NCBI RefSeq assembly: GCF_003309065.1
Contig: NZ_POAF01000013.1
Location: 1-44,267 of the forward strand
Length of the DNA stretch: 44,267 nucleotides
Direction: 5' to 3'
Source: Glutamicibacter soli
GTDB lineage: Bacteria > Actinomycetota > Actinomycetes > Actinomycetales > Micrococcaceae
In this document: positions 15,111 to 19,712 of the stretch, piece after piece
Layout of the letters: each line of letters begins with the position of its first letter
Position numbering within the stretch: the first letter of the stretch is position 1
Position numbers and translations under genes: made by a program
The notes under the pieces: generated by a model
What the model was told of the DNA's origin: nothing
Database searches by the model: none
The model's input: only the letters and a program-made list of their open reading frames with translations

Positions 15111-15845
15111 ATGACTTTACGTGCCGACGGCCGAGGCGCCGCGCAACTTCGAGACATTACCATCACCCGCGGCTGGTCCGCCCAGGCCGAAGGCTCGGCC
15201 CTGATTGAATTCGGCAACACCCGCGTGCTGTGCACCGCCTCCTTCACCCAAGGGGTGCCGCGCTGGCTCAAGGGCGAGGGCACCGGCTGGGTCACCGCCG
15301 AATACGCCATGCTGCCGCGCGCCACCAACACCCGCAACTCCCGCGAATCCGTCAAGGGCAAGCTCTCCGGGCGCACCCATGAGATCTCCCGCCTCATCGG
15401 CCGCTCGCTGCGCGCCGTGGTGGACACCAAGCAGCTGGGTGAGAACACCATCGTGCTGGACTGCGACGTTCTGCAGGCCGACGGTGGTACCCGCACCGCC
15501 GCCATCACCGGTGCCTACGTGGCGCTGGCCGAAGCCATCGAGTGGGCGCGCGCCCAGGGCATCCTCAAGTCCGGTGCCACGGTGCTGACCGACTCGGTGG
15601 CAGCGATCTCGGTGGGCATCATCGACGGCACCCCGATGCTTGATCTGCCCTACGAGGAGGATGTGCGCGCGGAGACCGACATGAACGTCGTGGTCACCGG
15701 CTCCGGCGACTTCGTCGAGGTGCAGGGCACCGCCGAGGGCGCGCCGTTCAAGCGCGCCGAGCTGGACGCGCTGCTGGACCTCGCCCTGGGCGGCACCAAC
15801 GAGCTCGCGCAGATCCAGCGGGAGACCCTGCGGGCCGCCCAGTGA
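15111..15845 (+). CDS. rph: Ribonuclease PH
   Basis: 244 residues. RNase PH trims the 3' ends of tRNA precursors using phosphate. It contains the expected [19 protein letters not shown] start, the [11 protein letters not shown] strand, the RSLRAVVD phosphate-site arginine region and the [19 protein letters not shown] block, with the usual total length. The next gene starts on a GTG that overlaps the rph stop by 4 bases. rph-rdgB is a widely conserved pair in actinobacteria. Confidence 0.96.
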
Positions 15846-16477
15846 GCGCGCCCGTGCTGGTCCTGGCCTCGCACAACGCCGGCAAGCTGCGCGAACTGCG
15901 CGAGCTGCTGCGCGGCAAGGTGCCGGGGCTGGACGTCGACACCCAAGTGATCGACGCGGCCGCCGCCGGGGCCAGCGACCCGGTCGAGGACCAGGTCACC
16001 TTCGCCGGCAACGCGCTGAAGAAGGCCCGCGAGGTCGCCGCCTCCAGCGGGCTGATCGCGCTGGCCGACGACTCCGGGCTGAGCGTCGACGTGCTGGGCG
16101 GCGCCCCGGGCATCTTCTCCGCCCGCTGGTCGGGCGTGCACGGCGACGACGAGGCGAACATCGACCTGCTGCTCGCTCAGCTGGGGGATATCGGCGCAGA
16201 GCACCGCGCCGCGCAGTTCGTCTGCGCCGCCGCGCTGGCCACCCCGGCCGGTGCCGAGCACGTGGAACTGGGCACCTCGGCCGGAGTGCTGCGCACCCAG
16301 CGCGCCGGATCCCACGGCTTCGGCTACGACCCGATCTTCGAACCCGAGGGCTCCGGCAAGACCATGGCCGAGCACACCCCCGAGGAGAAGAACGCCATCT
16401 CGCACCGCGCCCGCGCGTTCGCCGCGCTGCTGCCGGTGATCATCGACGAGGTGACCAGGGCGCTCGCCGCCCGCTAG
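15842..16477 (+). CDS. rdgB: XTP/dITP diphosphatase (RdgB/HAM1)
   Basis: 211 residues from a GTG at 15842 overlapping the rph stop. It removes non-canonical purine nucleoside triphosphates. Motifs: [14 protein letters not shown] for the triphosphate site, [23 protein letters not shown] (metal-binding acidic residues and substrate loop), and [12 protein letters not shown] followed by the [10 protein letters not shown] ending. Length and order are normal. A strong terminator follows. Confidence 0.95.
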
Positions 16478-16496: not shown

Positions 16497-16542
16497 AATC
16501 CGGCATCCTTCCGCCTCGCAGTGGCGGGATGCCGGATTTTTT
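16497..16542 (+). terminator. Rho-independent terminator after rdgB
   Basis: AATCCGGCATCC (16497-16508) pairs with GGATGCCGGATT (16527-16538), with CCGCC/GGCGG as inner stem, and a run of six T at 16537-16542. This is the clearest intrinsic terminator of the window; it also separates rdgB from the convergent CotH gene. Confidence 0.9.
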
Positions 16543-16591: not shown

Positions 16592-18244
16592 TTACGTCGC
16601 CTCGTCCTGCCGGGAACCGCGCTGCGGAGCCTGCCCCGGAACCAGACCCGGCGCCTGGCCCGCGCCCGAGCCGGTGTCCTTGGTGAAGTAGGCGCTGATC
16701 GCTTCCGCCTCCGATGCCACCGTATCCGCGTCGACCAGGTCGTCTGCCTGGCTGGTGAGCAGCGCGCTCCAGGTGTCCAGGATCTGCTGCGCCGCCCCCG
16801 AATCGTAGAGCTTCGCGGTCAGTTCGGTTTTCGCCTGTTCGACCTTGGCACTGAAGTCCGTGTTGGCCAGGAACCGGGTGACCAGCGGATTGTCGTTCGC
16901 TGCGCGCGGGCGCCCTGCCTGGAGATCGCCCTGCCCGTCGCCCTGCGCCCCGGGGTCGGCAGATCCGCCTGCGTCCTGCTGCCCGGGGCCCTGCCCGTCC
17001 TGCGGTGACAGGCCGGCGGGCATCTCGCCCTTGGCCAGCTGCTGCAGCACCTGCAGCAAGGTGGTGTCCCCGGTGAGCTTCATGCCTTCGGGCAGGGCCG
17101 CGCCCTCGGGCAAGATTCCCTGCGTGATCTGCGCCGTCGCCGCCTGCACATCCGCGCCGGCGGGAAGGAAGCGTTCGAGCATCGCGTCGGTCCCCGGGCC
17201 GCTCCCGACTGGGCCGTCGGCGTCGCCGCGAGCACCGCCCATGCCACCCATGCCGCCGAAGGACAGGTTCTGGTCCCACGCGACCACGGTCATCGTGCCG
17301 CTGGAGGTGTCGTAGCGCAGGAACGAGTTGTTGCCCGGCCCGTCGATGTCATCGGAATTCGCGACCAGGTCCTGCATCGCAAGATAGGTCGCGAACTGGT
17401 CGACGTCCAGGTGCTCGGCCAGCTGCGCGGCGAAGTCCGCGTCGGAGGAGTTGTTCACGAAGTCTAGGAACTCGGCGATCGGCGTCAGGTCCTCGGCCCC
17501 TGACTCCACGCTGAAGGCGCTGTCGTAGTCGCTGCCGCTGGCGCCTCGGTAGGAGTAGTCGCCGCTGGAATCGGCCTTGTAGGTGATGCCTTCGCCGGTG
17601 AACACCGCCGCGCTGTACAACTCATCGGAGGGATTGTCGATGACCAGTCGGAGCTGGGCCGCGGAGCCGTTCAGCGTGAACCGGGTGGCCGCCGCCTGCT
17701 CGGTGGCCAGCCCCGCCTCGCCGAGCAACGCCAGCGCCACTGCCTCGTTCAGCGAGGTCTGCGAGGTGTTGGTGCGCACCACGAACTGCGTGCGGCCCGC
17801 GTAGCTCTGGCCGTCGACGAATTTGTCCAGCCGGATCTGCCAGGGCAGGTCCTGCGGGTCCGAACCGGTGTCCGCCTGGCGCAGCGTGGAATTGCCCTTC
17901 AGCCGCAGGCCGGCGTTCAGGAATACGGTGCCGTCGATGGTGACGGTTGCGCTGATCCATTCCTTGGACTGCTCCGACTCATAGGCCTCCAGCGCTGCGG
18001 CCACGTCCTGCTCGTCGGCCTCGACGTTGATCTCGTGCACCGAGTCGCTGTTGAAGAAGCTCGCGGTCTCGGCGCTGACCTGGGTGTTGACGATGCCGTC
18101 GGAGGCCTGGGCGCCGGGGACCGGGCTGCATCCGGCCAGCGCCATGGCGGCGATGGACAGCGTCGCGGCCATGGTCATCAGGTTGCGGGCGCCGCGCCGG
18201 GGACCGTCGGGGGCGGAATGCGTGAATTTGTCGCGGGGATACAT
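16592..18244 (-). CDS. CotH-family kinase-like lipoprotein
   Basis: 550 residues. A signal peptide ends in the lipobox LAGC (Cys39), so the protein should be lipid-anchored outside the membrane. CotH marks follow: AGLRLKGNST (111-120), the ITYKAD lysine (Lys223) and the DDIDGPGNNSFLRYD...VAWDQNLSFG stretch (298-330). CotH proteins have an atypical kinase fold and phosphorylate secreted proteins. Gly/Met and Gly/Gln/Asp-rich low-complexity inserts follow near 331-350 and 430-460. The start at 18244 has AGGAG at a good distance; longer starts overlap the VTC gene. It is 11 bases behind the VTC gene, in one operon. Confidence 0.8.
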   Translation of the reverse strand: MYPRDKFTHSAPDGPRRGARNLMTMAATLSIAAMALAGCSPVPGAQASDGIVNTQVSAETASFFNSDSVHEINVEADEQDVAAALEAYESEQSKEWISATVTIDGTVFLNAGLRLKGNSTLRQADTGSDPQDLPWQIRLDKFVDGQSYAGRTQFVVRTNTSQTSLNEAVALALLGEAGLATEQAAATRFTLNGSAAQLRLVIDNPSDELYSAAVFTGEGITYKADSSGDYSYRGASGSDYDSAFSVESGAEDLTPIAEFLDFVNNSSDADFAAQLAEHLDVDQFATYLAMQDLVANSDDIDGPGNNSFLRYDTSSGTMTVVAWDQNLSFGGMGGMGGARGDADGPVGSGPGTDAMLERFLPAGADVQAATAQITQGILPEGAALPEGMKLTGDTTLLQVLQQLAKGEMPAGLSPQDGQGPGQQDAGGSADPGAQGDGQGDLQAGRPRAANDNPLVTRFLANTDFSAKVEQAKTELTAKLYDSGAAQQILDTWSALLTSQADDLVDADTVASEAEAISAYFTKDTGSGAGQAPGLVPGQAPQRGSRQDEAT

Positions 18245-18255
18245 GTTCCGTGCTC

Positions 18256-19047
18256 CTAGTCCTGGAGGGAAAACTCGGTGGTGATCTTGTATTTGGTGCT
18301 CTGGTGCCAGCGGTTCGCCGGGAGCCCTGCGTGCAGCAGGCCCATTCCGGTGGCGAACTTGGAGATGCGCGAGGGGCGCACCCCGTGGCGCCACAGCAGC
18401 CGGTCGACCTCCCCGGCATTCAGCGCCGACTTGGTCTCCAGCACCACCTCGTTGCAGCGCAGCAGGCCGCGCCCGAGCGGATCGGCCCAGCGCAGCTGCT
18501 CGTCGATCGTGACGCGGCTGCCGGATTCGGCCCGGTAGAGCGTGGTGCGCCGGTAGGAGGACTCGATGACCGGTGCGAGCAGTTCCACGTCGATTCGGCA
18601 GTCGCCCAGTTCGTGCTCCAGCGTCTGCCGGACGTAGTCGCGGGCTTCGGCGTCCAAATTGCTGCGTTCAGCCGGGTTGTGTTCGATGCGCTCCTTGACC
18701 GTCTGCTCCCGTGCGCCTTCGGTCTTGACTTCCAGGAAACAGGCTCCGGTGTCCAGATAGCTTCGGGTGCGGACCTTGAAGCGCCGCCGCCGCGGGTGGG
18801 CCGCGAGGTGGAAGCTGGCCAATTCGGGGGTGTCGAAGTAGACCGACGAGTACCTGAAACTGCGCAGCTGGTCGATCTGCAGCACCTGGGCCCCGGCGGC
18901 CAGCACCGGGAGCAGCTGACCTGCTTGCGCTGCGGTGAGGATGTACTTGCGGTCGACACGGGTTTGCAGGGCCGCGTTGTCGTTGAGCTCCTCCAAGGTG
19001 ATGGAGGGAAGCTGATGGACCCAATCCGTGACGATTTCCCGGTTCAT
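18256..19047 (-). CDS. VTC-domain polyphosphate polymerase
   Basis: 263 residues, a stand-alone VTC catalytic domain. The basic tunnel residues known from yeast Vtc4 appear in order: RVDRKYI (30-36), FKVRTRSY (90-97), FLEVKTE (104-110), SYRRTTLYR (164-172), VVLETKSAL (201-209) and SRISKFATGMG (226-236). In yeast this domain makes inorganic polyphosphate from ATP. The ATG overlaps the DUF4956 stop by 4 bases (19044-19047), and the CotH gene follows closely. The protein has no membrane segment, so the DUF4956 partner may anchor it. Alternative: a VTC-like domain acting on another triphosphate substrate. Confidence 0.85.
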   Translation of the reverse strand: MNREIVTDWVHQLPSITLEELNDNAALQTRVDRKYILTAAQAGQLLPVLAAGAQVLQIDQLRSFRYSSVYFDTPELASFHLAAHPRRRRFKVRTRSYLDTGACFLEVKTEGAREQTVKERIEHNPAERSNLDAEARDYVRQTLEHELGDCRIDVELLAPVIESSYRRTTLYRAESGSRVTIDEQLRWADPLGRGLLRCNEVVLETKSALNAGEVDRLLWRHGVRPSRISKFATGMGLLHAGLPANRWHQSTKYKITTEFSLQD

Positions 19048-19712
19048 CGCGACTCCTGGGAGATGACTTCGTGGTTTTCGGCGGTCAGTGCGGTGCCGGC
19101 CGGCTTCGTGCGCGGCAGCGGCGGAACGGGTCTGGCCGAAGCAGGGCCGCCAAGCCCGCTGGACGGCGCGGCGGCGGAGAAGCGGACCTTGACGATCGTT
19201 TTGTCATTGACCAGGTCCACCTGCTGCACCGTGCACTGGTGGATCCGGGCACCGGGAAGCACCGAGGACAGATAGGCGTGCAGCTCCTCGTCGCCGCCCA
19301 CGGCCCGGTCCAGGACGATTTCCTGGTGTCGGTAGCGGGGCAGCACCTTGGAGCCGTCGGCGGCGAACATGACCAGCAGGATCAGCGTGATCAGCGCGAT
19401 CGGCAGCCACAGCGGATCCGGGGCCATGCCCGCAATCAGGCCGATGGCCAGGGCACAGAAGTAGTAGGCGATCTCATGCTGCTCAAGCTCGGTGGAACGC
19501 AGGCGGATGATCGACAGAACGCCGAACAGGCCGAGTCCCATGCCGATGCCGACGGAACTGCCGGATAGGGCCGCGGCCACGGCGAAAACGCCGATGTTGA
19601 TGCCGAAGTAGGACACCACCAGATCGCGTCGTCGATGCCGGGGCAGGTAGAGGCCGATGGCCAGCACCGCGATGGCTACCAGGTCCACGGCGGCGAAAAG
19701 CAGGATATTCAT
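19044..19712 (-). CDS. DUF4956 membrane protein, partner of VTC polymerase
   Basis: 222 residues. About four membrane helices occupy the first 120 residues, with the family phrase GLGLFGVLSIIRLRSTELEQHEIAYYF between helices 2 and 3. A soluble domain of about 60 residues follows (DGSKVLPRYRHQEIVLDRAVG onward), then a Pro/Ala-rich tail. AAGGAAG precedes the ATG. DUF4956 genes regularly sit beside VTC-domain genes; a role as a polyphosphate-conducting or anchoring membrane subunit is possible, in analogy with the membrane part of the eukaryotic VTC complex, but unproven. Confidence 0.82.
   Translation of the reverse strand: MNILLFAAVDLVAIAVLAIGLYLPRHRRRDLVVSYFGINIGVFAVAAALSGSSVGIGMGLGLFGVLSIIRLRSTELEQHEIAYYFCALAIGLIAGMAPDPLWLPIALITLILLVMFAADGSKVLPRYRHQEIVLDRAVGGDEELHAYLSSVLPGARIHQCTVQQVDLVNDKTIVKVRFSAAAPSSGLGGPASARPVPPLPRTKPAGTALTAENHEVISQESR

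Follow-up and report, generated by a model that had tools for sequence, protein, structure and literature searches.

What do three tightly packed genes, encoding a DUF4956 membrane protein, a VTC (triphosphate tunnel) protein and a CotH-family lipoprotein, do together in Glutamicibacter soli? The window analyzed here is the whole stretch of 44,267 nucleotides at the start of contig NZ_POAF01000013.1 (assembly GCF_003309065.1), and an earlier note, made from its letters alone, had proposed that the trio makes polyphosphate or another phosphoryl donor at the membrane and uses it, or ATP, to modify surface proteins. We tentatively favor the reading that the operon encodes a bacterial polyphosphate synthase coupled to the membrane, which passes its product to a secreted partner. 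Its parts differ in strength: polyphosphate synthesis by VTC is likely, judging from fold and aligned residues; outward transfer or export of the polymer is plausible; and its use by CotH is speculative.

The DUF4956-VTC pair and its exchangeable third gene

Across 119 genomes of the phylum, that of Glutamicibacter soli included, VTC was present in 15 genomes at 17 places, and DUF4956 in the identical 15 genomes, again at 17 places, with every DUF4956 match lying no more than 300 bases from one to VTC and sharing its strand (17/17). CotH was found in 12 genomes, all within the 15 that carry VTC. Beside the 17 VTC places stood CotH in 12 cases, Cthe_2159 in two (G027 and G063) and neither in three, namely G105, G103 (at a contig end) and a second Glutamicibacter soli locus. 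Within the genus, 17 of 18 genomes carry VTC and nine carry CotH. VTC and DUF4956 occurred together in three of 14 control genomes (Bacteroides ihuae, Corynebacterium glutamicum and Methanosarcina acetivorans), two of which also possess CotH, counted by presence and not by adjacency. The grouping of the trio is far beyond chance. The earlier expectation that the three families co-occur holds up and supports a functional unit, in which DUF4956 and VTC are a near-obligate pair that forms the constant core and CotH is an optional third gene.

The nearest relatives were analyzed as a named set, the best 80 of 390, which leans to close kin because its members are largely Micrococcaceae and Microbacteriaceae. 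DUF4956 lies directly upstream of VTC in 77 of these 80 loci; L022 and L047 begin at a contig end, and in L049 tblastn found no DUF4956 beside VTC, making it the sole named locus so despite ample upstream sequence. The overlap between the two genes, four bases long, recurs in 67 of 78 related loci, with the start codon nearest to the stop taken. Directly downstream of VTC, Cthe_2159 occupies the slot in 56 loci and CotH in nine, with one further Cthe_2159 and two further CotH genes near but not directly downstream and the contig cut in three loci. Pfam confirmed the third gene in six loci (three Cthe_2159, three CotH), and the others were classed by profiles from those loci and the Glutamicibacter soli CotH. 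On an 82-protein VTC tree, the CotH label needs to be gained or lost five times in all, and well-supported branches force every one of these changes. Surface phosphorylation, which the earlier note had proposed for the system, is therefore no constant theme, since CotH is optional and Cthe_2159 is commoner in the slot. In Nocardioides sp. Root140, the post-VTC gene (L055:8736-10511) gives a Tat-signal match just below the cut-off and a weak metallophosphoesterase match.

In other phyla, eight of 16 plasmid records were opened, two of them without annotation, and gene names are the records' own. Two Aminobacter plasmids and one from Shinella carry DUF4956-VTC-phytase-like, a Nitratireductor plasmid DUF4956-VTC-phosphate transporter-phytase-like, Deinococcus taeanensis CotH-VTC-DUF4956, and Deinococcus QL22 VTC-DUF4956 with an acid phosphatase on the opposite strand followed by phnDCE; Pfam confirmed the phytase-like protein in two records and both CotH and DUF4956 in D. 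taeanensis. Gene order varies across the records and the DUF4956-VTC pair persists. A near-constant pair with changing secreted glycan or phosphate partners is consistent with polyphosphate that is made at the membrane and passed outward. The pair also lies near annotated genes for an S8 peptidase, a sigma factor and an anti-sigma factor on plasmids of Aminobacter and Nitratireductor (L102, L106 and L108).

The same partners could serve a different end, with polyphosphate serving for storage or in a calcium-polyphosphate-exopolysaccharide matrix, and with CotH using ATP on its own substrates, independently of the polymer. Cthe_2159 beside the pair points to an extracellular glycan, and CotH carries the cellulose-binding domain CBM2 by Pfam in the two loci tested (L069, with chitobiase C-terminal domains in addition, and L076). 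Furthermore, the trio is already in print as Pel accessory genes: those portions of PMC7112168 that were available describe cotH-PPP-DUF4956, with DUF4832 or diguanylate cyclase/phosphodiesterase (DGC/PDE) genes, as an accessory set of Gram-positive Pel operons, report it beside Pel clusters in streptococci, clostridia and bifidobacteria, and propose regulation of Pel via CotH phosphorylation. The same three families are contiguous there, and the paper names one a poly-phosphate polymerase; the Glutamicibacter soli trio differs in that no Pel operon was found with it, PelG being undetected in a 25-contig assembly where a gap is possible, and DUF4832 and DGC/PDE not having been searched. On the other side, 14 of the 15 CotH matches in the phylum are no more than a few kilobases from a pair, the one in G105 being on another contig, and all nine in the genus adjoin VTC. 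That CotH is nearly never found away from the pair suggests dependence, and we regard the storage or matrix account as unlikely.

Tunnel residues of VTC and a possible MgtC link of DUF4956

The VTC protein matches PF09359 at 91.5 bits against a curated cut-off of 23, and VTC is the sole Pfam domain above cut-off in its 263 residues. In both fold and profile, its nearest relative is the yeast polyphosphate polymerase Vtc4, of which K200, K281, K294, R361 and R373 are basic tunnel residues. In the profile alignment, with Vtc4 numbered on the full-length chain 8i6v_E, K34, R93, R95 and K108 of the bacterial protein correspond to K200, R264, R266 and K281, and K118, R167 and R178 to K294, R361 and R373; the role of R264 and R266 is covered in the accessible part of PMC9911596. 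The aligned catalytic tunnel residues are kept in 40 of 40 VTC sequences. E204 is likewise invariant (40/40); it sits at the place expected for the acidic residue E426 of Vtc4, in a part of the protein that the alignment did not reach. The earlier claim that all basic tunnel residues are present thus stands for the seven alignable ones and is incompletely shown as a whole, because the E426 region lay beyond the Vtc4 alignment. With the yeast VTC complex (Vtc1/Vtc3/Vtc4) the system shares the triphosphate tunnel metalloenzyme (TTM) polymerase fold, the aligned tunnel residues and a membrane partner. It differs in lacking SPX and in that its membrane part is a protein of its own, the differently built DUF4956; a fused three-helix membrane domain with SPX, as in eukaryotic VTC, was not found in the VTC protein, whose model has no helix longer than 15 residues. 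The yeast complex exports into the vacuole, whereas export here would be out of the cell.

DUF4956 had been described as a four-helix protein; the AlphaFold2 model, of moderate confidence (pLDDT 80.0, pTM 0.58), instead shows five helices followed by a beta-alpha-beta-beta domain at the C-terminus. The loops that follow helices 1, 3 and 5 contain clusters of basic residues, whereas those that follow helices 2 and 4 have none, and by this pattern and the positive-inside rule the soluble domain and the conserved arginines would lie on the cytosolic side, facing VTC. All 34 aligned sequences share R25, R70 and R72, as well as 12 of the 15 residues of the GLGLFGVLSIIRLRS motif, which hhalign places on the GxGFLGAGxI motif of MgtC. 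The profile match to MgtC, from a DUF4956 set that contained zero MgtC loci, had probability 89 and P 2.3e-6 over 107 columns, scoring 44.4 against 20.6 for the best of 100 full column shuffles of MgtC, 27.2 for the best of 100 block column shuffles, 21.5 for reversed MgtC and 13.0 for a GtrA control. P was 1.1e-4 when limited to 51 close DUF4956 rows, and an initial comparison, smaller in its number of sequences, did not reach significance (P 0.035). The Pfam MgtC model PF02308 gave no match to the DUF4956 protein by hmmscan up to E 1, and none in the Glutamicibacter soli genome. DUF4956 may be distantly related to MgtC: with MgtC/SapB it has in common the GxGFxGxxxI motif and membrane helices followed by a C-terminal domain, and it differs in being missed by the Pfam model.

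This possible relationship underlies the main rival, in which the pair is a regulator with an MgtC precedent and no synthase at all. DUF4956 would be an MgtC-like sensor and VTC a module binding triphosphate or polyphosphate, together switching on surface polysaccharide or phosphate uptake, with CotH, Cthe_2159, NAGPA and GT2 as outputs. Beyond the MgtC match itself, MgtC activates PhoR and phosphate transport, according to the section of PMC6658541 at hand, and Pel clusters contain the same trio. Moreover, NAGPA (phosphodiester glycosidase) and GT2/GtrA genes, named by Pfam in L021, lie just upstream in 34 of the 71 loci whose upstream sequence exceeds 3 kb, and also in L040, where less is available. 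Against a regulator stand the conservation of the tunnel residues, which goes beyond what binding seems to need, and the closest structures, which are those of a polymerase. Taken with both sides, we consider it somewhat unlikely.

In the membrane-coupled synthase that we favor, cytosolic VTC would take gamma-phosphates from ATP and build polyphosphate in its basic tunnel, as its fold and residues suggest. DUF4956, MgtC-like and five-helix, may hold VTC at the membrane and guide the chain outward, doing the job of the fused membrane domains of yeast VTC, a role with which the observed near-obligate pairing is consistent. The third, secreted gene product would use or handle the polymer; here CotH, anchored outside and with its catalytic residues in place, may modify a surface protein or glycan, and in other lineages the slot is filled by a carbohydrate-binding or phytase-like protein.

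Several observations weigh against this reading. The commonest third gene is the carbohydrate-binding Cthe_2159 (56/80), no phosphate enzyme, and nine of the 80 named loci have neither it nor CotH; the second Glutamicibacter soli pair likewise has neither alongside, and B. subtilis, among the controls, has CotH without VTC or DUF4956. No channel was prominent among the structural matches of DUF4956, and MgtC, its possible distant relative, is a known regulator. Ppk1, for which the earlier note had asked, is present in 72 of the 119 genomes and in Glutamicibacter soli itself, so VTC is no Ppk replacement; of the 15 VTC genomes, 13 have it (all but G019 and G046), and a second polyphosphate maker therefore needs a separate reason. 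A single VTC sequence, used without a profile, matched no Vtc chain in the PDB, and the TTM fold also covers tripolyphosphatases and cyclases. VTC could instead be a TTM hydrolase, such as an inorganic tripolyphosphatase, that makes no chain; its sequence profile retrieves Vtc proteins exclusively in the PDB and its membrane partner is near-constant, both of which speak against a hydrolase, and we hold this very improbable.

CotH and the layout of the locus

The third protein is a lipid-anchored member of the CotH-type kinase family, as the earlier note had recognized: it matches PF08757 at 88.3 bits against a curated cut-off of 23.8, carries a lipobox and keeps both catalytic aspartates. Motif and 23-residue spacing pair D301 and D324 with D228 and D251 of the B. 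subtilis protein; of the 13 aligned sequences, all have D324 and all but L044 have D301. D228Q and D251A of B. subtilis CotH are called inactive in the consulted portion of PMC7821199. The solved CotH 5jd9, from whose alignment this pairing was read, has the same aspartate spacing, with WDYD where the Glutamicibacter soli protein has WDQN; that alignment is weak (E 1.2). Compared with the Bacillus spore-coat kinase, the Pfam family, both catalytic aspartates and their spacing are common, whereas the lipid anchor and the link to VTC and DUF4956 set the Glutamicibacter soli protein apart. Two distant genomes of the phylum each have a pair of CotH matches within an apparent single open frame, of 1261 residues (G019:C1:204892-207705) and 1238 residues (G046:C10:42177-44975).

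The tight three-gene spacing on the minus strand was as first described, with coordinates, strand, overlap and gap all in agreement (Table 1), and all three proteins score well above their Pfam cut-offs. On one side lie convergent plus-strand rph- and rdgB-like genes (15111-16477) and on the other, divergently oriented, genes for a GntR-like regulator and an ABC transporter (from 20016 on), all named by sight; with these flanks, the trio looks like a free-standing operon. The hairpin toward the rdgB-like gene is not significant, the region having two such sites against 2.1 expected.

Table 1. Positions of the trio and its features in the window.
Feature	Position	Strand	Support
DUF4956 membrane protein, 222 aa	19044..19712	-	PF16316 E 3.9e-56
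VTC (triphosphate tunnel) protein, 263 aa; VTC domain alone, without SPX	18256..19047	-	PF09359 E 8e-26
CotH-family lipoprotein, 550 aa	16592..18244	-	PF08757 E 9.1e-25
DUF4956 stop/VTC start overlap, 4 bases (ATGA)	19044..19047	-	
VTC-CotH gap, 11 bases	18245..18255		
GLGLFGVLSIIRLRS motif, DUF4956 residues 59-73, including R70 and R72	19494..19538	-	alignment; hhalign to MgtC
Lipobox LAGC, CotH residues 36-39	18128..18139	-	
CotH D301 to D324, aspartates 23 residues apart	17273..17344	-	
Short hairpin between trio and convergent rdgB-like gene; possible shared terminator, weak	16522..16534	.	

Elsewhere in the Glutamicibacter soli genome, the second DUF4956-VTC pair (L018:7623-9109, contig C22) is convergent with two-component-like genes, and its VTC forms the longest branch of the VTC tree. 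A lone Cthe_2159-type lipoprotein gene (L101:6547-8097, contig C25) lies beside a 6-phosphogluconate dehydrogenase-like gene, on a contig that differs from those of both VTC pairs.

Implications for polyphosphate and CotH kinases

Our literature search, which left subscription papers and preprints outside its range, returned no title testing a bacterial VTC enzyme and found DUF4956 named in three papers. The findings suggest that bacteria have, alongside Ppk, a second, VTC-type polyphosphate route with a membrane partner that is near-obligate. They also point to a specific candidate for where CotH kinases obtain their phosphate, a question that PMC7821199, on spore-coat phosphorylation, treats as unanswered as far as its available text goes. 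In the boldest form, which we think quite doubtful, polyphosphate made by VTC from ATP in the cytosol would exit through DUF4956 and donate phosphoryl groups to CotH outside, without extracellular ATP, in bacteria and archaea alike, and swapping the third gene would turn the exported polymer to other uses. If chains do cross the membrane, this could explain how a kinase on the outside is supplied with phosphate.
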